From: Spirogloea muscicola
Taxonomy: Eukaryota > Streptophyta > Zygnematophyceae > Spirogloeales > Spirogloeaceae
NCBI GenBank assembly: GCA_009602725.1
Contig: WELB01000228.1
Coordinates: 69,425 to 100,441, forward strand
Reading direction: 5' to 3'
DNA: 31,017 nucleotides
The position numbers and the translations under genes are program-made. Below are positions 5,560 through 29,550 of this stretch, piece after piece. Under the pieces are notes generated by a model. That model saw nothing but the letters and a program-made list of their open reading frames with translations. It searched no databases and was not told the origin of the DNA. How positions within the stretch are numbered: the stretch's first letter is position 1; every line of letters starts with the position of its first letter.

Positions 5560-8187
5560 TCAGCGCACATCCTCATAGAGCCGCTTGTAAAGTTGCTGCA
5601 ATTGCTGGTGGCTTGCTCCAAGAGCATAGCTGCACACAAGTGCGATGATGTGATGTCAATGTTGCTGTCTCATCTCATTCACTATGTGCTCTTCCTGCTT
5701 ATCTTGTGAAGCACACCAAAGGTCTGGTCTCTACAGCCCTGTCATTAGGCTTCTAACTGGTCTAGCTTGAAGACAGCCATGGACATGATTGTCCTTCTGC
5801 TCTACTCCCCACTATGCTACAGTGCCATCGTGATGCTGGATTTCATTACTGTCAGTATTGGTCATGCGTGTGCCAATGCTCAATCTCAAAGACAACCGAG
5901 TACGTCAGGGCGTCGCTCAAGAGTACCTGAATCCGATATTAGCAAATATGTAGGAGGTCTTTAACAACCCCCACCTCTTTATTCTCCGTCCACTGCGAAG
6001 CAAGCAGACTGGTAAGTGCAACTTCTTCATAACCAGCGCATCCACAATCAGAAATCCTTCAGCAAGCAGGACATCAAGATTCATCGCTGTCAGCAGACAC
6101 ATTCACCTAAAACCCTGAATACAGCTCTGCCTTAATGATCATGCGCTTGGTCAAACCTCAATGGCATGAGAAAGCTATTTGACTACCTGGTATAGACTGC
6201 TCGCGAGAGGATCTTTACTTTGCTTGATCGCCGCACGCCAAACTCGTCTATGTAACCTCGGTCGTGGAGTCGCTCACAAAGATTGACATCCTGCGCTGAC
6301 GGGGCATGTTGTATGCCGAGTGCGACTTAGTCCCGAGCACAACCTGAGCAGGTCATCCAAGATCTGCATTTACAACCAGGTTGAATCTTGATGATAACTT
6401 TGTCGACCATGGACACTGTGCTAGACACACATTTGTGGTATGAGCTGATCCAGTATGTTGACATTATGTACAACCTGCAATCGGCAGATGCTGCACTTCA
6501 TTACCTCCATGATTGGAAGTCGTTCATCGAAGCCATTCACAGCAAGAAAGTCCACTGCTCTGCAGAAGATTACCTGCACAGGTACTCTAATTATCGGGGC
6601 TTTACAGCTCTTGCACATGAGCACAAATTGAGCAAGAGTCCTTGCATTACCAAGTACGTCATGGTCATTTGGACGTGTTGAATCTGTGCAACGTGTGAGC
6701 AGCGCTCACATATCCTAAAGACTGACATAATGTCCATGATGCTTCTCAAGCACGCACACAAGGCTTTTGCCAGAGGGCCTCAAGAAACACTTGTGGCACT
6801 TAATATAACCGGAAAAGAAGGTGTTGACTGCCGGCACCTGGTCTCCAAAGAGGGCCCGGAGACCTCTGGCAAACTTGAGCGGGCGGAAGAGAAGGGGGCC
6901 GTACCATGTCTACACAGTGGTGAACGGTGCCAGAACCATCACAATCACCAGACTAGGAGTGCGAGAAGCACTCCTAGTGGCGCTCTACGTCACGGTTTTG
7001 GCATGAGAAGAGACACTGCATTCTGAGGACCTCAAAGAGTTCATGCAGAAGGAATGAATAAAGTAGAGCACGTGGCAACGGACACTCACAGTAATCAAAG
7101 AGCTATGAATTACGACGTCGGCGGGACATGGGTATAGGTACTACGGTTCAGGTATTGGGGTTCAGGTTTTGGGGTAAAGTAAGCAGCGGACCTTCACGGT
7201 GTTGTGAAAGGAGCTGCCCCACAGCGTGCTGCCCTCGTGGCGAAGGACGGCCACAAAGCCACCGCAAGCGACCGCGGGTTCGCTGAGCAGGGCACGCATG
7301 AGGGCCACGAGGTCCCGTGGCACAGTGGTGTCAGCATGAAGGAAGCAGAGCAAAGCCGTCGGAGGGCCCGAGCCTCCGGTCTGCATGGCAGCAGCCGCCC
7401 AGCGAGCACCGGCATTGAGCTGAACTGGGCGGCCGCGGCCAACGCCCGCCACGACAGCGGCGCCAGCAGCTCGGGCCAACTCTGGGGTGCTATCACTGCT
7501 CCCGCCGTCCACGACGACTACGCCGGCTGGACGCGGCCGCAGGCCTACAAGCTGTTGCACGGTGGCCCCAATGGCCGCCGCCTCGTTCAGTGCAGGGATG
7601 ACGACGTAGACGGCCATGCCGCTTTCCTCCTCGTCGCTGGTGTCACAGAACTGGCTGCCTTCCTCACAGCGCCGCCCGTGGTCACCCCTCCCATCTCCTC
7701 CGCTGCCTCCGTCGCCTCCGCGGCCGCCATTGCCACTGCCACCAAAGCCGCCGCCCTGACCATCATGGCCCCGTGCCACGGCCAATGCCAGCACCACGGC
7801 GGCGTGGAGGATGACCCAAGTGGCTACGCCGCCCAATAGTGCGGCAGCAGCCGCCACTGCCTTGAGTACAGGGATCCACATTGGCGCTCGGCGGCCCGAA
7901 AGCACTGCCACAGCCAATCCTTTCCTCCGTCCGCCTCTGCCGCTCAGTGGTGTCTGTGACTCCACCACCTGCTGAATGCCAGAGTGCGGCAAGTGCGGCA
8001 GCGCTGACAGCTGCTTGCACCGGCCGGTGCGCCTGCTGCAGTGGGAGCAGTGGCAGCGGTGGCTGACAGCCAGCGCAGCGAAGCTGCGGCCGTGACCGGC
8101 AGCAGCCGACCGGCCCAGCAGCGTCAGTGCGAGGCGGGCGAGGGGGAGCGTGGTGAGGCCGCCGCTGGCGCGCGGCAGGCTGGTCAT
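5560..8187 (-). CDS. Family-2 glycosyltransferase (TIGR04283-like), six exons, membrane-anchored
   Basis: The exons on - are 8187-7192, 6909-6838, 6573-6505, 6290-6187, 5992-5927 and 5629-5560. The intron phases are 0,0,0,2,2 and all introns are GT-AG (282, 264, 214, 194 and 297 bases), giving 458 residues. GT-A fold motifs are the nucleotide-sugar loop VVIPALNE (195-202), DGGSSDST (227-234) and the metal-binding LHAD (283-286). Further matches are PLLFRPLKFARGL and FGDQ in exon 2, NGFDERLPIME in exon 3, a DxxLCxRLH motif in exon 4 and SGRRIKRWG across the exon 4/5 junction, the order seen in plant, algal and cyanobacterial members. The family transfers a sugar from an activated donor; acceptor unknown. 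Residues 103-138 form one strong hydrophobic helix, followed by a Gly-rich linker. Residues 1-102 are Ser/Arg/Ala-rich and could be a transit peptide. Translation could instead start at Met103 (7881), making a signal-anchored protein. Exon 1 is far more GC-rich than exons 3-6. A LINE tail sits 60 bases upstream of the ATG. Confidence 0.85.
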
Positions 8188-18289: not shown

Positions 18290-18620
18290 CCAGGTTGCCA
18301 CGTGGCGCCGAGGCGTGCCGCAGTGCCTTCTCCAGCCCCGCGCGAGGCTGAGAGCGTGTTTGCCCGCCACGTGGCGTACCCTGAAGTGGGGGGCAGCGGC
18401 GGGATGGGGCTGGGAAAGTGAAGGGGTAGCAGAACAAACCCCCCCACGCCACCCCCCCTAAGCAGCGACTGTGGGGCCTGAAGAGGCTATGGCAGAAGGG
18501 GGGAGGATGGACCACTCAGTAGTTACGAGTAAGGAGCCTCACATCCGACAGACTAGCTGCCGGAAAACCATCCCCCTGACGTAAGCCGGTTTTTGCCTAC
18601 TTGCCTACTTAAGGCACCGC
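18290..18620 (+). promoter_or_regulatory. Promoter of GCC copy 1, two G-boxes, split by a LINE fragment
   Basis: CACGTG at 18299-18304 and 18368-18373, each in a CCACGTGGCG context, and the core TACTTAAGGCACC at 18606-18618 match the promoters of copies 2 and 3. A LINE 3' UTR fragment on - (about 18462-18590) separates G-boxes from core, and TGCCTACT is duplicated just before the core. Spacing is therefore altered relative to the two intact genes. Confidence 0.6.
18462..18590 (-). mobile_element. LINE 3' UTR fragment in the GCC copy 1 promoter
   Basis: On - it reads from CAGGGGGATGGTTTTCCGGC to the TAACTACTGAGTGGTCCATCC stop-codon region and on to GCTGCTTA, the same as 17930-18056 in the + LINE. 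It lacks the terminal stem-loop. Confidence 0.7.
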
Positions 18621-18804
18621 CGCTGCAGCACTCCCAACCGGGCCCCACCAGCCCGTCCCCCACTCGTGCGCCGTACCTCCGCTGCCGCGACTGCAGCCCG
18701 CCGGCCAGCCCTCAGCCCCCCCTTGCCCCTCGCCCCCGCAGCTGCACCCGCGGGCCCCCTCGGCCTCGCCCGCCGCCGAGGCCTCCTGCCCCGGCCTGCA
18801 CTCC

Positions 18805-19281
18805 ATGGCCGCCACGCCCGCACCCGCCGCTCGCCAGGGCGGAGACGCCCGCTGCCGCGCCGCCGCGGCCGCGCTCCTGCTGGCCGCGCTCCTGCACCTC
18901 ACGGCGTCGGCTCCGACGTCGGAGGGGCGCCTCATTGCCGACACCGGTGGCCAGGATCCGGCCCCCTGCCCTCCGTGCGCCGCCGGCTACCAGCCCAGGC
19001 GGCCACAGCGCTCCGACGGTGTCTGCCTGCCCTGCCTCCACTGCCCGGCCGGAAGCTTCGGCGACGGGAGCGCGCCGTGCAGCCTCTGTCCTCCTGGCTC
19101 GAACAGCAGCGCGGGCAGCGCGTCCTGCGCGACATGCTCGCCGGGAACGTTTGCGGCCTCGGCGGGTCAGAGCCAATGCAGCACGTGCCAGCCTGGAACC
19201 TTCGCGAAGAGCGATTGCACCTCCGATGTTGCTCATCATGAGATTATACGGGAGGGGTGGCAGGTGAAGCGCAATAAGTAA
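18805..19281 (+). pseudogene. Truncated copy 1 of secreted GCC2/GCC3 cysteine-rich protein
   Basis: ATG 18805 opens a 158-codon frame whose first 135 or so residues parallel copies 2 and 3: the same signal peptide (hydrophobic AAAAALLLAALLHL, cleavage after TASA), TSEGRLIADTGGQDPAPCPPC and four to five CxxC repeats up to CQPGTFAK. At about 19210 homology ends abruptly and 23 unrelated residues lead to TAA at 19279-19281. It could give a short secreted protein, but truncation plus a disrupted promoter make a pseudogene more likely. A diverged piece matching the missing C-terminus lies at 19780-19935. Confidence 0.75.
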
Positions 19282-19343
19282 TGGACCGAGAGCCAACTCA
19301 AGAGTGAGGATCAATGAGGCCGAGAGAGAGAGGCACAGCCCTG

Positions 19344-19520
19344 CTGTTGCCTGCTGCCGCAGCCAATCACCGCAGCCGCGCTGCTTCCTGCTGTGCAGCT
19401 CCTCGCCGCAGCCCGTCGCTGCGGTCTTCTCAGTGCCTCGCTGTAAGTACTGTGGCCCCATGTGGGGGACAGCTTCTGACTTATGATCCTCAGGTAGAGT
19501 CACCGCCTGCTGGCGGTACC
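19344..19520 (+). repeat. Hairpin-bearing repeat module, copy A
   Basis: This matches 28680-28854. It has a Ser/Cys-codon-like GCAGCC/GCTGC-rich stretch, a CCCC-ATGT-GGGG hairpin (about 19456-19467) and a perfect ACCGCC-TGCT-GGCGGT stem-loop (19502-19517). In both places it lies downstream of a GCC gene copy. It may be an LTR-element leader (TGGC...GGGGAC resembles a PBS). Confidence 0.6.
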
Positions 19521-19779
19521 TCAGTGTAAGACTTCCGCTGCGCTGTGTGTGCTGGCGTTTTACTGTGTGGAAGGCTTTGCTGCTGTAACCTCCTATAAGC
19601 GGAACCAAGCAGGACGGTTCAATCCTGACTGTGTTACTGGGGTTCAATTGACAAGCCGCCAAGCACATCGCTGGTCATATTGTAGACGGCGAATAGACTT
19701 TGCGCGAAGTTCGCGCGCTAATCGAGTCTGACCGGGAACCTTGTCTGAAGGGTCATATTTGGAAGGAGTTGCACAGGCT
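19521..19779. other. No gene seen
   Basis: Unassigned sequence. The one notable feature is a near-perfect palindrome GCGCGAA-G-TTCGCGC (19702-19716). Confidence 0.35.
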
Positions 19780-20127
19780 TATTGGCTTGTTTGTGCAAGA
19801 TGCCGTGTTCACTCTTTCACACCCCAGATTGGCAACAGCTCTGGCATTCCATGCCCTGGAACAACCTCCAACGACCACACAAGTTGCTCCTACTCTGTGT
19901 GGGATGTCAAGCCTCCTTATGCGTTCTCGCTTCATACTGCACCTCCCATACTCACCTCCTCCGCTTATTGGTACCTCGAAGGCGACTTGGGGTGGCTTGG
20001 GTGTGAGCTGCCGTTGCAGAAATCTATTCCAATCGCCTGCAATTGTGCCCTTATGGAAGTAGAACGAGTGGTCTTGCATGTTGCCTCGTTGCCCATCTGG
20101 CTCCCTTGTGTACCCGTAAGCTATTAA
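19780..20127 (+). pseudogene. Diverged C-terminal segment of a GCC-family protein
   Basis: In the frame ending at TAA 20125-20127 the codons read CARCRVHSFTPQIGNSSGIP then CPGTTSNDHTSCSYS. In copy 3 the equivalent is CTRCGGATFAPHPASSSCLD then CPGPVSNDHTVCYIS. CxRC, FxP, SSxxxxCPG and SNDHTxC are kept in order. The codons after this (WDVKPPYAF onward) do not match the intact copies. It may be the remnant of copy 1's own 3' end, separated by about 570 bases of inserted DNA, or an exon of an older paralogue. Confidence 0.45.
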
Positions 20128-20667
20128 TCAACACCTCCGAAGATACTTACAGCGATTGCCTGGTAAATATGTCTGTAAAAAAGAGCTGAAATTGCAAACA
20201 ATCTCCGACTACTATTGCCATTTGTGCCAGCTGAATACTGCAGCCTGCGTAGCGTGTGAATCAAAAGGTCAGCACTCTATCCAGGCCAGTACTATTTCTC
20301 CTCTTTACATTCGTCGACTGCAACAAGATGAGCGAATGGCTGCAGCATTGTCGTTGCTTGAAAACAGATTGGTGATACTCCATTTTTCGTCAGGTTGTCT
20401 GATCGAAAGGCTTGTCGGCTGTGCCATGAGACACATACTGCTCACTCATCACTCGCCAGCATTGGCTTCTGACTGCAAGCCTAGTAAGATGCTCGTCAAA
20501 GTCTGTCTCACACTGGGCTCCTCGTACTGTTTGCACGGCTGCTTGATTCGTCAAGCAGTGTGTTGAACCAGTTCTGTGACTGATTGCAACTACGGCAGTG
20601 ACCTGGCTATGGTGTTTAGATTTCGGTTTGCAGACCGGCTGCACGGTCGCACGTCAACCTCAGACGG
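20128..20667. other. No supported gene
   Basis: A frame at about 20156-20566 reads LPGKYVCKK...CVACESKGQHS, faintly like a GCC repeat, but lacks a start, a splice frame or family spacing. I treat it as unexplained. Confidence 0.3.
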
Positions 20668-21012
20668 CTAGCTCTGAAGAACAGGAGCCAAGGCTACCGT
20701 GGTGACTGCTAGGTGATTGAGATGGATTTTCTTCAAACAGCGAAAAGGGTGGCATCTGGTAGGGGCTACTTTTTGCTGCTTGCACATAAGCGGGTGAACT
20801 AGACTTCCTGCGGCGAATGCAAGGGCCTCAATGATCCCAACTATCTTGTCGGCAAGGCTTGCAGTATTGCTGCCTGACTTCGTCCCCTCAATGGACAGAC
20901 TGGAGACTGTTCTAATCTTCGTACGTGTTTCGAGCAGAGAGCCTTTGCAAACGCGCAAATCACCAAGCTCAGGCGCGCAACAATGCAAGGGAATCCGTAA
21001 TGGCAATATCAT
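20668..21012 (-). other. Conserved ORF fragment of unknown nature
   Basis: On - the open frame includes LLETRTKIRTVSSLSIEGTK, SGSNTASLADKIVGIIEALA and FAAGSLVHPLM. The 125-base core (20817-20941) recurs inverted at 26793-26915, where the same frame carries a stop and a 4-base insertion. Recurrence points to a transposon or duplicated exon. I do not recognise a domain. Confidence 0.35.
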
Positions 21013-21830
21013 GGGGCTGCAATGGCAACAACGTCCAGGGGGTCCAAGAGTTGGTAAAAGTTGACCTTCATTCCCCTCTAAGATTCTCCTTGTGTGTAGC
21101 TACGAGCTCCAAGTCTTCCCGCATCATGGCGCTACCTGGCTTTTGCCTCCCTCTAATGTATATGGCCTAGAGACCAACGTCAGTGCATCATGTCAACAGT
21201 CTACCATGACGGGTCTCCGGCCCCAAGTGCACCTTGCATCGCCATTCCTCTGCTAGCACCACGCTGACTCGCGCCACAGTTCCTGGCTGCGCCCTTCTCG
21301 GCTCAGGAAAGCAGAGATCCCTGATCGTTCACGTGGTTAGGCGCTAGCATCCGGACAGCTGCAAGCCGGCATTGCCGCGCCTAGACATTTCAGCTCTGAA
21401 GCACGAACGAAGACCAATATTTGTTGGGCTTTGCAATCACAAGCAGGTAGGGATCAGTACGAATCGAAGCAGTGACTGCAGGAAAGGGAGGAGTGCGCAG
21501 TATGATCGTCTCATTGCTCTGGGCTCTTGCCTCCTGACTGTACTTGTTGACGGAAAAGGGAGGACCGTCTGGGGTCCTAGGTATGGCACTTCTTCAGCTG
21601 CCTGCTTCAATAGGCTGACGTGAAGTACAACTTCATTGCAATTGCAAACTGCTCGCAGAAATTAATTGAAATCTTCAATTTAGTTGACAACGTTCATACT
21701 GTAACATCCTTGGATCTGGAACCGGTCGATTGCACCTGTGTACTTGCAAGCTGCCATTCGCTTTCCATGCTTAACAGGCAGTGGTCTATGAGTTTCACAA
21801 TCAATGCGACTTGAACAAACAAATGGCAAG
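21013..21830. other. No gene seen
   Basis: Balanced-composition sequence. Frames are under 85 codons, without good start or splice context. No repeat family of this window is recognised here. Confidence 0.35.
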
Positions 21831-21907
21831 TAATAGTCGGCGAGCTCGAGTAAGATTTCACGAGAACACAAGGGAGCCGAAGTGGTCAACGAGACAACAC
21901 GTATTGC

Positions 21908-21912
21908 TTACA
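21908..21912 (-). promoter_or_regulatory. TGTAA poly(A) signal of GCC copy 2
   Basis: TGTAA on -, 79 bases after the stop, in the context CTGTATGTAAGCAATAC. The same context occurs 80 bases after the stop of copy 3, so context and distance are conserved. Confidence 0.75.
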
Positions 21913-21990
21913 TACAGGGTGCAGCGAAATGAATTAAAGTCTGTAGCAGCAGATCTGCTGCCAGCTCAACCTGAGGCATCCAAGTTGCCT

Positions 21991-22992
21991 TCAAGGCAGA
22001 GTAACTCTTTTGAAGGGAGGCGATGGCTGTGAAGGCAGAGGGAAGAGGTCGGGAGATGGGGTATGAGGCAAGACCGCATCTATATAGCAAACTGTGTGGT
22101 CGAGGGAGACCGGTCCTGGGCAATCAAGGCAAGAGCTGCTACCCGGATGGGGTGCAAATGAAGCACCACCGCATCTGGCACAGACAATGTTGCCTTCGGA
22201 ATCCTCACTGGAGGTCGTGCCAGCCGGGCAGGGCTCACACAGCGACGACGTAGAGGTCTTCTTCACATACCCCGCCGGACATTTTGAGCAGTCTGATAGG
22301 CCAGGCACTGGCGTCGAGGTACCTGCAGGGCATGGTAGGCATTCCCGGGCTCCCCGCCAGCCAAAGAGTTCCTCATAGAACTTCTCATCGGCATAGGTGC
22401 CTGCTGGACATGTTTGGCAGGAAGTCGCCCCCGACGTCGGAGAGAACGACCCAAAAGGGCATGCGGTGCACTTGCTTGAGCCTGCAGACGCTGCGAAGTC
22501 CCCAGCAACGCACTTATCACAGAATTGCCACCCGGCAAAGCTGTACGAGCCTGGCGGGCAGACCGCGCAGCCTGTCGACCCTGCTCTCTCCGCGACTGTT
22601 CCAGGCTGGCACGTGCTGCACTGGCTCTGGCCCGCAGACGCCGCAAACGTTCCCGGCCAGCACGTCACGCAGGAGGCGCTGCCCGCGCTGCTGTTCGAGC
22701 CAGGAGGACAGAGGCTGCACGGTGCGCTCCCGTCGCCGAAGCTTCCGGCCGGGCATTGGAGGCAGGGCAGGCAGACACCGTCGGAGCGCTGTGGCCGCCT
22801 GGGCTGGTGGCCAGCGGTGCAGGGGGGGCAGGGGGCCGGGTCCTGGCCTCCGGTGTCGGCAATCTGGCGGCCCTCCGACGTCGGAGCCGACGCCGTGAGG
22901 TGCAGGAGCGCGGCCAGCAGGAGCGCGGCCGCGGCGGCGCGGCAGCGGCGGTCTCCGCCCCGGCGAGCGGCGGGTGCGGGCGTGGCGGGCAT
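21991..22992 (-). CDS. Secreted cysteine-rich GCC2/GCC3-repeat protein, copy 2
   Basis: 333 residues, single exon. The start at 22992 is chosen because it opens a clear signal peptide (RRGGDRRCR, then AAAAALLLAALLHL, cleavage near TASA) and lies 210 bases after the promoter core. The frame stays open upstream, but only through promoter DNA. The mature part has about eleven CxxC units with CPxG[ST/YF] spacing, the pattern of Pfam Ephrin_rec_like (GCC2_GCC3) repeats, ending CPGPVSLDHTVCYID and a Pro/Ser-rich tail. There is no transmembrane helix or catalytic domain, so it is probably secreted to the wall or matrix; such repeats are disulfide-rich adhesion or spacer modules. Its cysteine pattern follows that of copy 3 despite many substitutions elsewhere. 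It is inverted relative to copies 1 and 3. Confidence 0.82.
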   Translation of the reverse strand: MPATPAPAARRGGDRRCRAAAAALLLAALLHLTASAPTSEGRQIADTGGQDPAPCPPCTAGHQPRRPQRSDGVCLPCLQCPAGSFGDGSAPCSLCPPGSNSSAGSASCVTCWPGTFAASAGQSQCSTCQPGTVAERAGSTGCAVCPPGSYSFAGWQFCDKCVAGDFAASAGSSKCTACPFGSFSPTSGATSCQTCPAGTYADEKFYEELFGWRGARECLPCPAGTSTPVPGLSDCSKCPAGYVKKTSTSSLCEPCPAGTTSSEDSEGNIVCARCGGASFAPHPGSSSCLDCPGPVSLDHTVCYIDAVLPHTPSPDLFPLPSQPSPPFKRVTLP

Positions 22993-23201
22993 GACGTGCA
23001 GGCCGGAGCAGGGGGCCTCGGCGGCGGGCGAGGCCACGAAGAAGAGTGCGGCTGGAGGCCGGGGGGCCCGCGGGTGCAGCTGCGTGGGCGAGGGGCGGGG
23101 CGGGGGGTGATGGGCAAGGCGGGCGCTGCGGCGGCCGGCGGGCTGCAGGCGCGGTAGCGGGGGATGGCCGGGGGAGTGCTGCAGGAGCGGCGGAGATGGT
23201 G

Positions 23202-23450
23202 CCTTAAGTAGGCAACGCCGCCCCCGGGGGGAGGGGCGGGGGAGGGGGGGGCCTTGTTTCGCAACCCCTGCAACTCCCGCCCCCTTCTCCGCTCCCGCCA
23301 CGTGGTGTGCAGGCATGCCCCCGGCTTCGCCGGCAGTCGAGAAGCGGCTGCACAGAACCTCGCCACGTGGCGCGCCGCTTTGGGCCCAGGTGACCCCCGA
23401 TCGGCGTGACGCGGGCGACGGCGGGAGTATCATGGTCCGCCACGTGGCGG
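23202..23450 (-). promoter_or_regulatory. Promoter of GCC copy 2: three G-boxes and TACTTAAGG core
   Basis: CACGTG palindromes lie at 23441-23446, 23364-23369 and 23299-23304, each within CCACGTGG. The core TACTTAAGG (complement at 23202-23210) lies 210 bases before the ATG. Order and spacing match copy 3. In plants G-boxes bind bZIP and bHLH factors in light and stress responses; a role here is inference. Confidence 0.65.
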
Positions 23451-23599
23451 CTGCGGCAGGGCGGCCCTCCGCGACCGCCGAGGGGGGGCGGGCCCGTGCG
23501 GAGAAGGCGGCCAGTGGTCGCGCGCCTCTCGCGGGGCAGGCTTTGCCCTTTCAGTTATCATTTTTGTCGAACAGAGGGTGGCACAGCCGGAAGTGCAGC

Positions 23600-24213
23600 A
23601 TGTCGTGATGAAGAGGATGGCGCAGCCATCGCGGCAACTCCAAATGTGACAACGACAGCGGCGACGACGGCAACAGCGGCGGCGGCGGCTGCAGCGGCGG
23701 CGAGCTGGACTTGACGGGGATCGGCGGCGTTCGCCCCGGTGAGTGCAAGGAGGCAAGTCCCTCCAGCCCCCCAAACCCTGAACCCGGCGGCGCGCCCTAA
23801 CGCCAGCAGCCTGGATCTCAAGGGTCGGCGCCAAGCCCAATTGTGTCCATCCTCCCCCCTTCTGCCATAGCCTCTTCAGGCCCCACAGTCGCTGCTTAGC
23901 TCGTAGTGTGGCCCCTTCGAACCTTGTCAATTCTTTTCGGGCTGGCTTCTCACAGCCCTTGCCCCATTGGGAGAGCCACTTCTTTCTTAATTGTGGAGAT
24001 CCAATCGATCGATCCACCAACCGCTGAGACCACCGGACGCCCTAGCTCGGGGACAAACCCTGAGCCCCTCAGTACCCCGCCGACACACTGCTATGTGTGG
24101 GCCTCATAAAGCGCGCATTGAGGTGCTACCGCGCGGCTCCACACACAGCACCTAGACCTAGACCATACGAGCTAGCATAAGGAGAATTCTCGTCAAACTC
24201 TCGATTCTCAACA
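23600..24213 (-). repeat. copia LTR (3' LTR), split by a LINE
   Basis: On - it starts TGTTGAGAATCG at 24213 right after a PPT-like GCTAGAGTGGGAA, and runs through segments shared with the 12798/14035 LTRs (CTAGGTCTAGGTGCTG, GGCGCGCCGGGTT-like, GATCCAATCGATC) to GGCGGC runs near 23640. The far end (about 23600-23625) is not sharply defined. The LINE insertion 23846-23988 interrupts it. Confidence 0.7.
23846..23988 (+). mobile_element. 143-base LINE tail in the LTR, TSD AATTGTG
   Basis: The LINE 3' UTR, from the TCCATCCTCC that follows the LINE stop codon to the terminus GGGAGAGCCACTTCTTTCTT, includes the stem-loop (23939-23958). AATTGTG at 23839-23845 and 23989-23995 is a 7-base target duplication, and the LTR sequence resumes exactly after it. 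This defines the true 3' end of the LINE family. Confidence 0.85.
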
Positions 24214-25140
24214 TTCCCACTCTAGCAAATGGGAGTCTAAGTCATCTCAAGACCGAACTGCTCAATGCACTTGTGATGCTTTAGCTTGCCTACTCCTTAA
24301 ATTGAGCTGTCAGCAGCCATGCTGTCGGTTGGGCGATATTGGAAACAGACTCTATCTGCCTCAATAAGCTCTCTCACAAAATGCCACTGGCTCGCTCCTA
24401 CTGTGATGCACCGTAGATTTTTTGAGTGCGAGACTTCCCTGATTGTCACTGTAGTTTACGGTTGGAGCTCGTTGAGGAAAGCCCAATTCTCCAAGTAGTC
24501 TGGTCAACCAAACAGCTTATACATTCTGCCTCCATTGTGGACAATGTCACGGATCTCTCTCTTACCGCTCCATGATATGGCAGCTCCCCCCAGCAACAAA
24601 ATATAACCTGTGGTGGATCTTCGAGTATTCAGGTCCCCACCCCAATCTGCATCATACTAGCCATAGAGAGTCGAAAAACGCTCGACACTGTCGTCCAGTT
24701 GTTCCTCAACTTCTGATGCAGCCAAGAAGAGTGACACACAGCGGGGACGACCTGCCAGGGCCCCTAGCCTGTGACAGAGTCGGGGTCCAGTTTCGTTTCA
24801 GAGTGATTGAGGCAGCAGTTTGAGCAGACAACAGCGCAGAGCGGGACGACCTGCCAGGGCCCCTGTCCTGTGACAGACTCGGGGCCCACTTTCTTTTCAC
24901 AGTAGATTTTACAGCAGTCCGAGTAGAAGACATAGAAGGAGACAACCTGGGAGGGCCCCTATCCTTTGAGGAGTTCAGAGCCCGAGTTCTTTCACTCGTA
25001 GAAGAGCGATGCTGAAGTCTGCTCTCTCCTCCGAACGCAAGCCACATACTTGTAGTCCCAGCAAGATACCGAAATTCGTTTGGGGGCTTGCCAGTCGGCC
25101 ATCCCAGGATGTTGCATGCTGTTGCATGATGTTGCATATT
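24214..25140 (-). pseudogene. copia 3' region: RNase H remnant with expanded linker
   Basis: On - the order is HPGMADWQAPKRI / [15 protein letters not shown] (frameshifted), a repeat-filled linker, [24 protein letters not shown], then YSDNQGSLALKK, HFVRELIEADRVCFQYRPTD and MAAD, and finally the PPT and LTR at 24213. This is the expected copia RNase H order. It is broken by a stop before YDADW, by frameshifts around ISWSGKR and after LKK, and lacks everything upstream. Confidence 0.75.
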
Positions 25141-25587
25141 GCATAACTGTTGCTCGCTTGGTGTTTCCGTCGCTTATACTTATGACTGGAAATCATCCAT
25201 CACAAGCGCCAATTACTTTCTCATTCCGGTACTACACAATCTATCTCATCTCAAACCAAGTAACGTCCAGTTTTCTTGTCTTCTATTTCCTTTCACAGTG
25301 TTTGGCGTTGCCAGTCATGCCGTTGCCAGTCATGCCGACTCTACCTTGTCACCTGCATTTCACACAACTCTGTCCTATCGTCGTTCATTAGCAAACGACA
25401 CCAGGTGGCACAATAGCGCTCGCAAAGCTGGAAGCCGATCGGTTGGCGTAAGCGGGGCGCGCCCGAGCGACGTTCTGCGCCCTCCGCGGCAGAAGACGAG
25501 AAGGGGGGGGAGAGAAACAGCCCTTCCAATGTACGCAAGGGCTTTGAGAGGCCAGCTCAAGAGGAGAAAGACGCATCCAGTAGAGGG

Positions 25588-25770
25588 CGATGGCTGTGAG
25601 TGGCCAGCCCAGAAAAATTGAAAGTTTTGTACAAAGGAATGTACAAGGCCTGAAAGGCCGGATGGCGTGAGAAGCAGGCGAAGGAGGGGAGAGAAGAGAG
25701 AGGGAGGCTCAGAAATGGAGAGACACAGGTGTGCATCATGGGTTTTCTGGACTGGCCAGTCACAGCCATC
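25588..25770. repeat. Fold-back element with 28-base inverted ends
   Basis: CGATGGCTGTGAGTGGCCAG continuing CCCAGAAA (25588-25615) is inverted at 25743-25770 with about two mismatches, around a purine-rich GAAGGAGGGGAGAGAAGAGAG centre. It could be a MITE, or two LINE 3' ends in inverted orientation, since the ends share the LINE stem-loop core. No flanking target duplication could be fixed. Confidence 0.55.
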
Positions 25771-25994
25771 GCTATCTAATGGGAGAGTCCTTCTCCTCTT
25801 CATACACAGATGCAGAGCGCGAGAGAGAGAGGAGAGGAATGAAGAGGGGAGAAAGTGAGTGAGCTCTTCCAAAGCGGGCGGGGCTTTGAATAGCCACCCA
25901 GAAAGAACAAAGATGGGTCAAAGGGCCGAAAGGGGCTTCAGCGATAGGAGCTTAGTAACCCCGAGGGCAGTCAAGTCGGAGTGAGCTGCAGCTG

Positions 25995-26385
25995 GAAGGA
26001 AAGTGGCTCTCTCAAAGGGGGTAAGGGCTGTGAATAGCCAGCCCGCAGAGGATTGACAAGATCCGAAGGGGCCCAACAGCGCTCTCTTAAAGCTCTCACT
26101 TATTGACCTCTAGTGAGGAGCCGCAAATCAGAAAGACTAGCAGCAGGAAAGGAATCTCCCTGACGAAGCCAGAGGCTGCAGCTAGAGCACGGCCAACACG
26201 CACGTGCAAGGCGTGGGCATTGGACCGCTGGAGTGAGATGGACAGGCGCTAGCGAGCCAGCGGCGTGGAAGTCAGTCTGCTCACCTCGCCTGCGCAACAC
26301 AGCGCGTCGCTCCAGCCGGGCCAACAGTTCAAGCCACTGAGACCCGCAAGACCCCTGCGCATCGACGGCCAGTGAGAGGGGAAGA
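25995..26385 (-). mobile_element. LINE tail, unit 1
   Basis: On -, SLAVDAQGSCGSQWLELLAR, RLERRAVLRRRGEQTDFHAA and GSLA lead to a frameshifted SLSDLRLLTRGQ, then the 3' UTR with GGGCTG...CAGCCC (26028-26046, read on +) and a GAGAGCCACTTTCC terminus. Its twin is at 30420-30810. Confidence 0.75.
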
Positions 26386-26496
26386 GTGAAAGATGGCGTG
26401 AGAAAGCGATGGCTGTAATTTTCCAGCCAATTAAAATAATTAAAGGGGGTGAGTGGGAGAGAGGGGGGGAGAGAGGGAGAGCGAGAGAGCGAGAGA

Positions 26497-26790
<294 letters not shown>

Positions 26791-26792
26791 CT

Positions 26793-26915
26793 CTGCTCGA
26801 AACGCGTACGTAAATTAGAACAGCCTGCAGTCTGTCCATTCAGGGGACGAAGTCAGGCAGCAGTACTGCAAGCCTTGCCGACAATAAAGATGGTTGGGAT
26901 CACTGAGGCCCTTGC
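26793..26915 (-). repeat. Inverted copy of the 20817-20941 repeat
   Basis: The reverse complement aligns at high identity by eye with 20817-20941 (CGGCAAGGCTTGCAGTA, GCTGCCTGACTTCGTCCCCT, TGGACAGACTG), with a 4-base insertion (TTTA). It abuts the (GA)n tract on one side and a LINE tail on the other. Confidence 0.75.
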
Positions 26916-26985
26916 CGTGAAAAGCCAGCCCGATAAAGAATTGACAAAGATGCGATAGGGGCCAAATTATGGAGGGGCCTAGCGC
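26916..26985 (-). mobile_element. LINE 3' UTR fragment upstream of GCC copy 3
   Basis: GTGAAAAGCCAGCCCGATAA, AGAATTGACAAAG and GGGGCCAAATTATGGAGGGG match the LINE 3' UTR at 8926-8983 and the sequence after 9200. It borders the conserved GCC promoter block. Confidence 0.7.
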
Positions 26986-27029
26986 ACGGGCCCGCCCCCC
27001 CTCGGCTGTCGAGAAGGGGCCGCCCTGCC

Positions 27030-27285
27030 GCAGCCGCCACGTGGCGGACCTTAATGCTCCTGCCGTCGCCCGCGTCACGCCGTTCGGAGATCACCTCGAG
27101 CAACAGTGACGCGCCACGTGGCGAGATTCTGTGCGGCGGCCCCTCGACAACCGGCGAAGCCGGGGGCATGCCTGCACACCACGTGGCGGGAGCGGAGAAG
27201 GGGGTGGGAGTGCAGGGGTGGCAAAACAAGGGCCCCCCCCCCCGCCCCCTCCCCCCGGGGGCGGCGTTGCCTACTTAAGGCACCA
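27030..27285 (+). promoter_or_regulatory. Promoter of GCC copy 3: three G-boxes and TACTTAAGG core
   Basis: CACGTG lies at 27038-27043, 27115-27120 and 27180-27185, each within CCACGTGGCG. The core is TACTTAAGGCACC at 27272-27284, inside a small TGCCT...AGGCA palindrome. The core lies 210 bases before the ATG, as in copy 2. G-box contexts are conserved although the sequence between them has diverged, which suggests function. Confidence 0.65.
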
Positions 27286-27489
27286 TCTCCGCCGCTCCTG
27301 CAGCACTCCCCCGGCCATCCCCCGCTACCGCGCCAGCAGCCCGCCAGCCGCCGCAGCGCCCGCCTTGCCCATCACCCCCCGCCCCGCCCCTCGCCCACGC
27401 AGCTGCACCCGCGGGCCCCTCGGCCTCCAGCCGCACTCTTCTTCTCGGCCTCGCTCGCCGCCGAGGCCCCCTGCTCCGGCCTGCGCATC

Positions 27490-28491
27490 ATGGCCGCCGC
27501 GCTCGCATCCGCCGCTCGCCGGGGCGGAGACCGCCGCTGCCGCGCCGCCGCGGCCGCGCTTCTGGTGACCGCGCTCCTGCATCTCGCGGCGTCGGCTCCG
27601 ACGTCGGAGGGCCGCCAGATTGCCGACACCGGAGGCCAGGACCCGGCCCCCTGCCCTCCCTGCACCGCCGGCCACCAGCCCAGGCGGCCACAGCGCTCCG
27701 ACGGTGTCTGCCTGCCCTGCCTCCAATGCCCGGCCGGAAGCTTCGGCGACGGGAGCGCACCGTGCAGCCTCTGTCCTCCTGGCTCGAACAGCAGCGCGGG
27801 CAGCGCCTCCTGCGTGACGTGCTCGCCGGGAACGTTTGCGGCCTCGGCGGGCCAGAGCCAATGCAGCACGTGCCAGCCTGGAACCTTCGCGGAGGGCGCA
27901 GGGTCGACAGGCTGCGCGGTCTGCCCGCCAGGCTCGTACAGCTTTGCCGGGTGGCACTTCTGTCATGAGTGCTCCAGCGGGGACTTTGCGGCGTCTGCAG
28001 GTTCAGGCCAGTGCACACCATGCCCTCTTGGCTCGATCTCTACGACGAATGGGGCGACTTCCTGCCAATCCTGTCCAGCAGGCACCTATGCGAATGAGGA
28101 GCTGTTTTACGAGACGCATGGTAGTCGAGGAGCCTGGGAATGCCTACCATGCCCTGCAGGTACCTCGACGCCAGTGCCTGGCCAATCACAGTGCTCCAAG
28201 TGTCCGGCGGGGTACGTTAAGAAGACCTCTACGTCGTCGCTGTGTGAGCCCTGCCCGGCTGGCACGTCCTCCAGTGAGGATTACGCCGGCAACATTGTCT
28301 GTACCAGATGCGGTGGTGCTACATTTGCACCCCACCCGGCCAGCAGCTCTTGCCTTGATTGCCCAGGACCGGTCTCCAACGACCACACAGTTTGCTATAT
28401 CTCGCTTCATGCCCCCCCATCTCCCGATCCCTTCCATCTGCCTTCACCGAAGTCGCCCTTTTCACAAGTAGCTCCTCCGGCTCTGCCTTGA
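27490..28491 (+). CDS. Secreted cysteine-rich GCC2/GCC3-repeat protein, copy 3
   Basis: 333 residues, one exon, ATG 27490 to TGA 28489-28491. The signal peptide is residues 1-36 (RRGGDRRCR, then AAAAALLVTALLHL, cleavage after AASA). The mature chain has 30 cysteines in CxxC pairs with the GCC2/GCC3 spacing CPxG[SYT]...CxxC. Clear units start at CPAGSFGDG, CPPGSNSSAG, CSPGTFAASAG, CQPGTFAEGAG, CPPGSYSFAG, CPLGSIS, CPAGTYANE, CPAGTSTPV, CPAGYVKK and CPAGTSSSE. The C-terminus is CPGPVSNDHTVCYIS followed by a Pro/Ser tail, with no transmembrane helix or GPI signal. It is likely an extracellular structural or adhesion protein; no enzyme domain is present. It is the same length as copy 2, with the same cysteine pattern and matching flanks from about -500 to +150, so the two arose by duplication. 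Upstream in-frame codons belong to the promoter and 5' UTR. Confidence 0.85.
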   Translation: MAAALASAARRGGDRRCRAAAAALLVTALLHLAASAPTSEGRQIADTGGQDPAPCPPCTAGHQPRRPQRSDGVCLPCLQCPAGSFGDGSAPCSLCPPGSNSSAGSASCVTCSPGTFAASAGQSQCSTCQPGTFAEGAGSTGCAVCPPGSYSFAGWHFCHECSSGDFAASAGSGQCTPCPLGSISTTNGATSCQSCPAGTYANEELFYETHGSRGAWECLPCPAGTSTPVPGQSQCSKCPAGYVKKTSTSSLCEPCPAGTSSSEDYAGNIVCTRCGGATFAPHPASSSCLDCPGPVSNDHTVCYISLHAPPSPDPFHLPSPKSPFSQVAPPALP

Positions 28492-28570
28492 CGGCAACCT
28501 GGAATGGCTCAGGTTGAAGTGGCAGCAGAGCTGCTGCTACAGACGTTGATATTATTTGCCGCAGCCTGTA

Positions 28571-28575
28571 TGTAA
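28571..28575 (+). promoter_or_regulatory. TGTAA poly(A) signal of GCC copy 3
   Basis: TGTAA lies 80 bases after the stop in CTGTATGTAAGCAATACAT, the same context and distance as in copy 2. Confidence 0.75.
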
Positions 28576-28679
28576 GCAATACATACTATCTCGTTGACAA
28601 CTTCGGCTCCCTTGTGTTGTCTTGAGCTCTTACTCGAGCACGCCGATTGTCTCTTGCAATTTGTTAGTTCCAAGTTCCA

Positions 28680-28867: not shown

Positions 28868-29550
28868 CGTTAAGGAAAGCCCAATTCTCCGAGTAGTCTG
28901 GTCAACCAAACAGCTTCTTTACTTGCTTGGGTGGCCGCCATATATTCTGCCTCCATTGTGGACAATGCCACAGATCTCTGTCTCTTACCGCTCCATGATA
29001 TGGCTGCTCCTCCCAGCAAGAACACATAACTTGTGGTGGATATTCGAGTATTCAGGTCCCCACCCCAATCTGCATCAACATAGCCATAGAGAGTTGAAAA
29101 ACGCTCGACACTGTCGTCCAATTGTTCCTCAACTTCTGATGCAGCCAAGGAGAGTGACACAGAGCGGGACGACCTGCCAGGGCCCCTAGCCTGTGACAGA
29201 GTCGGGGCCCAGTTTCGTTTCAGAGTGTTCGAGGCAGCAGTTTGAGCAGACAACAGCGCAGAGCGGGACGACCTGCCAGGGCCCCTGTCCTGTGACAGAC
29301 TCGGGGCCCAGTTTCTTTCCAAAGTAGATTGTACAGCAGTCAGAGTAGAAGACATAGAAGGCGACAACCTGGGAGGGCCCCTATCCTTTGAGGAATTCAG
29401 GGCCCGTGTTCTTTCACTCGTAGAAGAGCGATGCTGAAGTCTGCTCTCGCCTCCGAACGCAAGCCATACTTGTAGTCCCAGCAAGATACCGGAAAAACCC
29501 GTTTGAGGGCTTGCCAGTGGGCCATCCCAGGATGTTGCATGCTGTTTCAT
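28868..29550 (-). pseudogene. copia RNase H fragment, better preserved copy
   Basis: On -, [10 protein letters not shown] (frameshifted) then [14 protein letters not shown], a repeat-filled linker of about 130 residues, [60 protein letters not shown] and [13 protein letters not shown], then TAA. Asp of DADW and Glu of EAEY are RNase H active-site residues of copia. The DNQ and C-terminal motifs present in the other copy are absent because the duplication breaks here. There is no RT, integrase or LTR. Confidence 0.8.
29160..29440. repeat. Three tandem 96-99 base units in the copia linker
   Basis: The units start at about 29162, 29261 and 29357 with GACGACCTGCCAGGGCCCCT-type cores. The equivalent array in unit 1 is 24739-25013. 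Both strands stay open across most of it: - reads RGPGRSS-type repeats in frame with RNase H, and + reads [16 protein letters not shown]-type repeats. Confidence 0.8.

Follow-up and report, generated by a model that had tools for sequence, protein, structure and literature searches.

Do the G-boxes (CACGTG) that stand in groups upstream of a small family of cysteine-rich protein genes in the streptophyte Spirogloea muscicola act as a shared switch, or are they what recent duplication has left in place? The family lies in a 31,017-nucleotide stretch of DNA (the window; contig WELB01000228.1, here C228, C228:69425-100441; 58.5% G+C), which we analysed together with the 153.1 Mb, 471-contig assembly. 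The window holds three copies of the gene (c1–c3), which belongs to the Ephrin_rec_like (GCC2/GCC3) family. Their upstream boxes, all in the form of the octamer CCACGTGG, do not vary among c2, c3 and a further copy, c4. New here is that CCACGTGG clusters also occur at two distant paralogues whose promoters can be aligned with those of the family in short segments only. We put at roughly 0.5 the probability that these genes encode extracellular-matrix proteins that are controlled through G-box-type abscisic acid-responsive elements (ABREs) and switched on together. The features on which the argument turns are as follows (window coordinates; negative distances are from the ATG).

18805–19281, plus strand: truncated copy c1; family homology ends at codon 136 (about 19212) and gives way to unrelated sequence up to the stop
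22992–21991, minus strand: intact Ephrin_rec_like (GCC2/GCC3) gene c2, 333 residues, a single open frame without intron (from Pfam and frame)
27490–28491, plus strand: intact Ephrin_rec_like (GCC2/GCC3) gene c3, 333 residues, without intron (from Pfam and frame)
18299–18304 and 18368–18373, unstranded: c1 promoter, two CACGTG, both CCACGTGG; octamers start at −507 and −438
23299, 23364 and 23441 (to 23446), unstranded: c2 promoter, three CACGTG, all CCACGTGG; octamers at −313, −378 and −455
27038, 27115 and 27180 (to 27185), unstranded: c3 promoter, three CACGTG, all CCACGTGG; octamers at −453, −376 and −311
18601–18618, plus strand: c1 core element TTGCCTACTTAAGGCACC, exact match
23198–23215, minus strand: c2 core element TTGCCTACTTAAGGCACC, exact match
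27267–27284, plus strand: c3 core element TTGCCTACTTAAGGCACC, exact match
21908–21912, minus strand: TGTAA, 79 bases after the c2 stop
28571–28575, plus strand: TGTAA, 80 bases after the c3 stop

The original prediction, made from the letters of the window, described two intact 333-residue genes in opposite orientation and one truncated copy, and genome matches together with the reading frames confirm this arrangement. The mechanically called frame of c2 is longer (480 residues, from an ATG farther upstream); its 333-residue start was assigned because start and signal peptide are common to the copies. A whole-genome search with c3 gave at least 22 matches, match counts for large families being lower bounds. 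The proposed expansion of the family is borne out, as the genome adds two intact copies, c4 (C228:108417, outside the window, 341 residues) and B (C169:173949, on another contig, 333 residues), and one pseudogene, A (C169:169060, with a stop at codon 75). The sequence at C228:112145 is a fragment of the c3 family, 65% identical, and the remaining matches are remnants and distant paralogues.

The regions C228:87100-115200 and C169:168600-182900 are pieced together from direct and inverted duplications with 67–98% identity, and within them older remnants of the same gene family lie at C228:110791, C228:112145, C228:89207 and C169:171494. One of them stands downstream of c1:

19783–19935 (C228:89207-89359), plus strand: older, more diverged copy remnant, 41% identical to residues 268–318

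Fifteen CACGTG occur in the window, eight of them within the three promoters and three in coding sequences (19182, 22610 and 27867); the predicted counts of three, three and two in the c3, c2 and c1 promoters hold by position. Outside the window, CCACGTGG stands at −453, −376 and −311 in c4 and at −422 in B. None is found in the 431 visible bases upstream of pseudogene A, where the DNA is unrelated to the family beyond about −196. The gaps between boxes in c2–c4 are 58 and 70 bases. At c3, three CCACGTGG in 700 bp compare with about 0.026 expected by base composition (Poisson P = 2.9e-6, for a motif fixed beforehand in the original prediction). The non-N sequence around both clusters amounts to 107.5 kb and contains 13 CCACGTGG; 12 of them fall in family promoters, most of the 12 being copies of one ancestral set. 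When c2, c3 and c4 are aligned, not one of the 30 box columns is variable, whereas 42 of the other 214 columns upstream of the core are (Fisher P = 0.0023); for CpG the counts are 0/3 in boxes and 15/34 outside. The chance that three 10-column windows placed at random all lack variation is P = 0.027, so this test on its own is moderate. The claim that G-boxes were kept while the DNA between them diverged thus stands for these three copies. The promoter block is not a dispersed repeat: the proposed genome search for further copies sharing it returned eight matches, all at family copies.

The shared core element is likewise recovered, with TTGCCTACTTAAGGCACC exact in c1, c2 and c3 and the element TTGCCTACTTRARGCACC kept in all six copies; it is probably a TATA-like core promoter. 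Allowing up to three mismatches, the 18-base core has 85 places in the genome against 16 for a reversed control, and with up to two mismatches 13, of which six are family copies. A match to the 13-base element on contig C18, without CACGTG in its 3 kb, was set aside as chance. The proposed common 3′ untranslated region with TGTAA is found in c2 and c3 and not in c1; it is confined to the intact copies because c1 has no homologous 3′ end.

Two much more distant relatives carry similar clusters, and for this reason the G-box looks like a real shared switch. Seven distant-paralogue loci were examined for upstream boxes. Three of them, on C145, C5 and C322 (L013, L014 and L018), form one paralogous subfamily with the same Cys-rich module and a further C-terminal part. 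The C5 and C322 paralogues, whose starts were assigned by shared sequence, match the family proteins at about 41% identity where the two can be compared; in the subfamily search with C322 one frame ran past the frame break, so that only about the first 100 of 200 residues are informative. The C5 gene has four CCACGTGG at −547, −505, −402 and −297 plus one GCACGTGC, and the C322 gene two CCACGTGG at −540 and −435, again plus one GCACGTGC, where about 0.03 CCACGTGG per 700 bp would be expected in these upstream stretches. The C145 gene shows no CCACGTGG in its visible 358 bases (−1007 to −359 is N), and the downstream stretch of that locus (L013:6-1124, minus strand) has no Pfam match. BLAST of the c3 promoter against the C5, C322 and C145 promoters gave short matches only, of at most 81 bases. 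Counted on either strand, the 8-mers that the c3 and C5 promoters each contain three or more times are CACGTGGC, ACGTGGCG, CCACGTGG and a C run; among all 8-mers the shared count is highest for CACGTGGC (5 in c3 and 6 in C5, either strand, from three and four boxes). A palindromic 8-mer occurring three times in both promoters arose in 0 of 500 single-base shuffles. The G-boxes are thus invariant in c2–c4 and recur in two distant paralogues.

The proteins score 81.2 bits (c3) and 76.7 bits (c2) against Pfam Ephrin_rec_like (PF07699; cut-off 23.1), in five stretches each, and truncated c1 reaches 23.3 bits, marginal against that cut-off. A hydrophobic core stands out at the N terminus (the highest 15-residue mean is about 2.1, against 1.0–1.2 elsewhere), which agrees with the signal peptide originally called and from which we infer a soluble protein that is probably secreted. 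Each protein has 31 cysteines, one before the hydrophobic core and 30 after it, and a Pro-rich C-terminal tail with 8–10 prolines within the last 35 residues. Repeated CxxC modules above the curated cut-off and a signal-peptide-like start are shared with Ephrin_rec_like/GCC2_GCC3 extracellular proteins. In contrast to those, the proteins here are stand-alone, 333 residues long and in a streptophyte, and no kinase, receptor or membrane part was seen. An NCBIfam search gave no match, and a structure predicted from two input sequences (mean predicted local distance difference test score 63.3, predicted template modelling score 0.42) is too weak to serve as support. Among the titles that literature searches on green algae or streptophytes brought up, none is devoted to the GCC2/GCC3 or Ephrin_rec_like family; PMC6019070 contains the phrase a single time, alongside 'green alga'.

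Conservation of the coding sequence is clearest at the cysteines: the four intact copies agree at every one of the 31 Cys columns but differ at 85 of 329 columns overall (P = 5.6e-5), and pseudogene A is without 3 of the 31, one of them through its stop codon. Ratios of nonsynonymous to synonymous substitution rates (dN/dS), calculated by the Nei–Gojobori method (NG86), are 0.58 for c2–c3, 0.71 for c2–c4, 0.53 for c2–B, 0.56 for c3–B, 0.60 for c4–B and 0.86 for c3–c4, the youngest pair. Of 200 neutral simulations, those at or below the observed value numbered 2 for c2–c3, 0 for c2–B, 2 for c3–B and 3 for c4–B; the comparison of copies 2 and 3 suggested in the original prediction thus points to purifying selection. 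Across the family such selection is real but weak, and for the pair c3–c4 it cannot be shown. Between −220 and +880, c3 and c4 agree at 97–100 bases in each 100-base bin, with 85/100 and 88/100 in the two bins before and 72/97, 57/73 and 75/96 after. These patches suggest conversion or mosaic exchange, so the pairwise dN/dS values are not independent.

ACGTGGC cores of the G-box/ABRE type lie upstream of the copies, three each in c2, c3 and c4, two in c1 and one in B. According to PMC3016407, a G-box-type ABRE in land plants functions only when it is repeated or accompanied by a coupling element, and the clusters fit ABRE control for that reason. As far as that text describes them, land-plant promoters of this type (targets of ABF/AREB basic leucine zipper (bZIP) factors; PMC3016407) similarly carry several ACGTGGC cores upstream of the gene; they differ in that the target here is an extracellular Cys-rich family, whose binding by such a factor and induction are putative. 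In the reading we prefer, small secreted proteins rich in disulfides would form a lineage-specific family that is duplicating within a repeat-rich cluster, in a streptophyte that is photosynthetic; each protein would comprise a signal peptide, a series of CxxC modules of the Ephrin_rec_like/growth-factor-receptor type and a short Pro-rich tail. The three CCACGTGGC sites of c2, c3 and c4, about 80–230 bp upstream of the conserved TATA-like element, would most likely be bound by a G-box/ABRE-class bZIP factor, with a basic helix–loop–helix factor as the lesser possibility. An environmental cue, stress or desiccation more probably than light, would then turn the proteins on jointly, and they would be built into the extracellular matrix. 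MFMR, the N-terminal domain of GBF-type bZIPs, has three partial matches in the genome (30/96 positions, above the cut-off). If the cluster does control the genes, a land-plant-type stress or light switch would be tied to a streptophyte surface-matrix protein family, and the six promoters, with 3, 3, 3, 2, 1 and 0 sites (the last over 431 bases only), would offer a compact reporter test. Among the titles that literature searches on streptophyte algae or Zygnematophyceae brought up, none is devoted to the G-box.

Two other accounts of the boxes have to be weighed. HY5 and PIF are factor names for light-responsive G-box control, and a promoter under HY5/PIF-like control would fit CACGTG with CC/GG flanks in a photosynthetic genome, in which RbcS matches lie on four contigs. 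However, the one RbcS upstream stretch that was read is free of CACGTG over the 556 bases that precede its assigned ATG. The cluster is thus not established as a mark of light genes, and CACGTGGC fits a G-box-type ABRE at least as well as a light element. The light-linked control originally proposed is thus unsupported, and we regard it as quite unlikely. Ordinary segmental duplication is a more serious, though still doubtful, alternative: the promoters would be shared through youth, the boxes would have no kept function and the genes would be decaying. Several observations favour it or weigh against common control. Two of the six copies are broken (c1 and A). Copy B, despite its intact frame, keeps one box of three, plus a one-mismatch box, having lost two; c1 has two and A none in its visible bases, so box conservation fails in part among the wider copies. 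Adding c1 and B weakens the alignment test to 13/30 against 116/184 variable columns (P = 0.034, with the second c1 box, 12 columns off box 3, counted as mismatch), which means that boxes are also lost, and single pairs with c1 or B are non-significant (P = 0.066 to 0.50). The c3–c4 ratio is indistinguishable from neutral (90/200 simulations at or below), that of c2–c4 is weak (19/200), and YN00 and maximum-likelihood estimates exceed NG86 for both (0.86 and 0.81 for c2–c4; 0.95 and 0.93 for c3–c4). The patchy identity, with the exchange it suggests, also fits duplication.

Among the paralogues, too, some results weigh against common control. The frame of C5 is open upstream through the box region, its start resting on homology, and that of C322 is broken downstream; the boxes compared between the two are only suggestive (3/40 against 78/453 variable, P = 0.078, first gapped box excluded), and a third subfamily has no upstream CACGTG at any of four loci (C93, C56 twice and C219; one start uncertain). 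Set against duplication is that c2, c3 and c4 are pairwise only 83–86/100 identical at −420 to −320, yet their boxes are unvarying; that the cysteines do not change; and that the clusters recur at promoters with which these align only briefly.

The closest solved structure by sequence, the Mst1 Cys-rich domain (8tx1 residues 1653-1904; E = 7.4e-21 and 3.3e-18), raises a further question, namely whether the proteins are ciliary mastigoneme components; the match is partly one of composition because the bias terms are large. Chlamydomonas MST1 and MST2 (8tx1) likewise have a growth-factor-receptor-type Cys-rich domain followed by a Pro-rich tail. According to PMC11015965, the MST1 Cys-rich domain is 26 nm long, with 26 disulfides and antiparallel dimers, and its poly(hydroxyproline) helix spans residues 1,854-1,932. 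In the same account MST2 has no Ig domains and runs from a signal peptide through a Cys-rich domain to poly-Pro, an order repeated on a smaller scale here, where a Pfam scan likewise found no Ig domain among the matches. The family proteins are nevertheless far shorter, with a short Pro tail, and lack Ig domains, and the genome has no detected dynein heavy chain (0 matches, against 95 for kinesin, in a search in which no control genome gave a dynein signal). The host is thus likely non-flagellate, and a ciliary role is very improbable because no dynein heavy chain was found. Its RbcS marks it as a streptophyte: exon 2 scores 114.6 bits with the best chain, small subunit 1A of Arabidopsis, against about 92 bits for the Chlamydomonas chains 1gk8 and 1ir2, whereas the RuBisCO large subunit had no match in the assembly. 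A bolder extension of the matrix reading, which we think unlikely, is that a streptophyte without flagella turned a mastigoneme-type Cys-rich rod, no longer tied to cilia, into a building block of its cell wall or mucilage and placed it under stress control through ABRE/G-box sites. Multi-ABRE matrix control would then predate land plants and would have been kept across paralogues by site turnover instead of alignable sequence. A mastigoneme-type Cys-rich domain would also be linked to an apparently non-flagellate host.

Elsewhere in the window, a glycosyltransferase family 2 reading frame (7162-8187, minus strand) has itself as its sole genome match; a tripled genome is unsupported by this one test, as the gene matches once only. 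The reading frame at 28873-29550 (minus strand) contains DADWGGD ... STMEAEYMA, a motif that we take to resemble copia-type RNase H, and has no Pfam match at 0.01. A (GA)n tract of about 330 bases (26460-26790) lies 0.7–1.0 kb upstream of c3.

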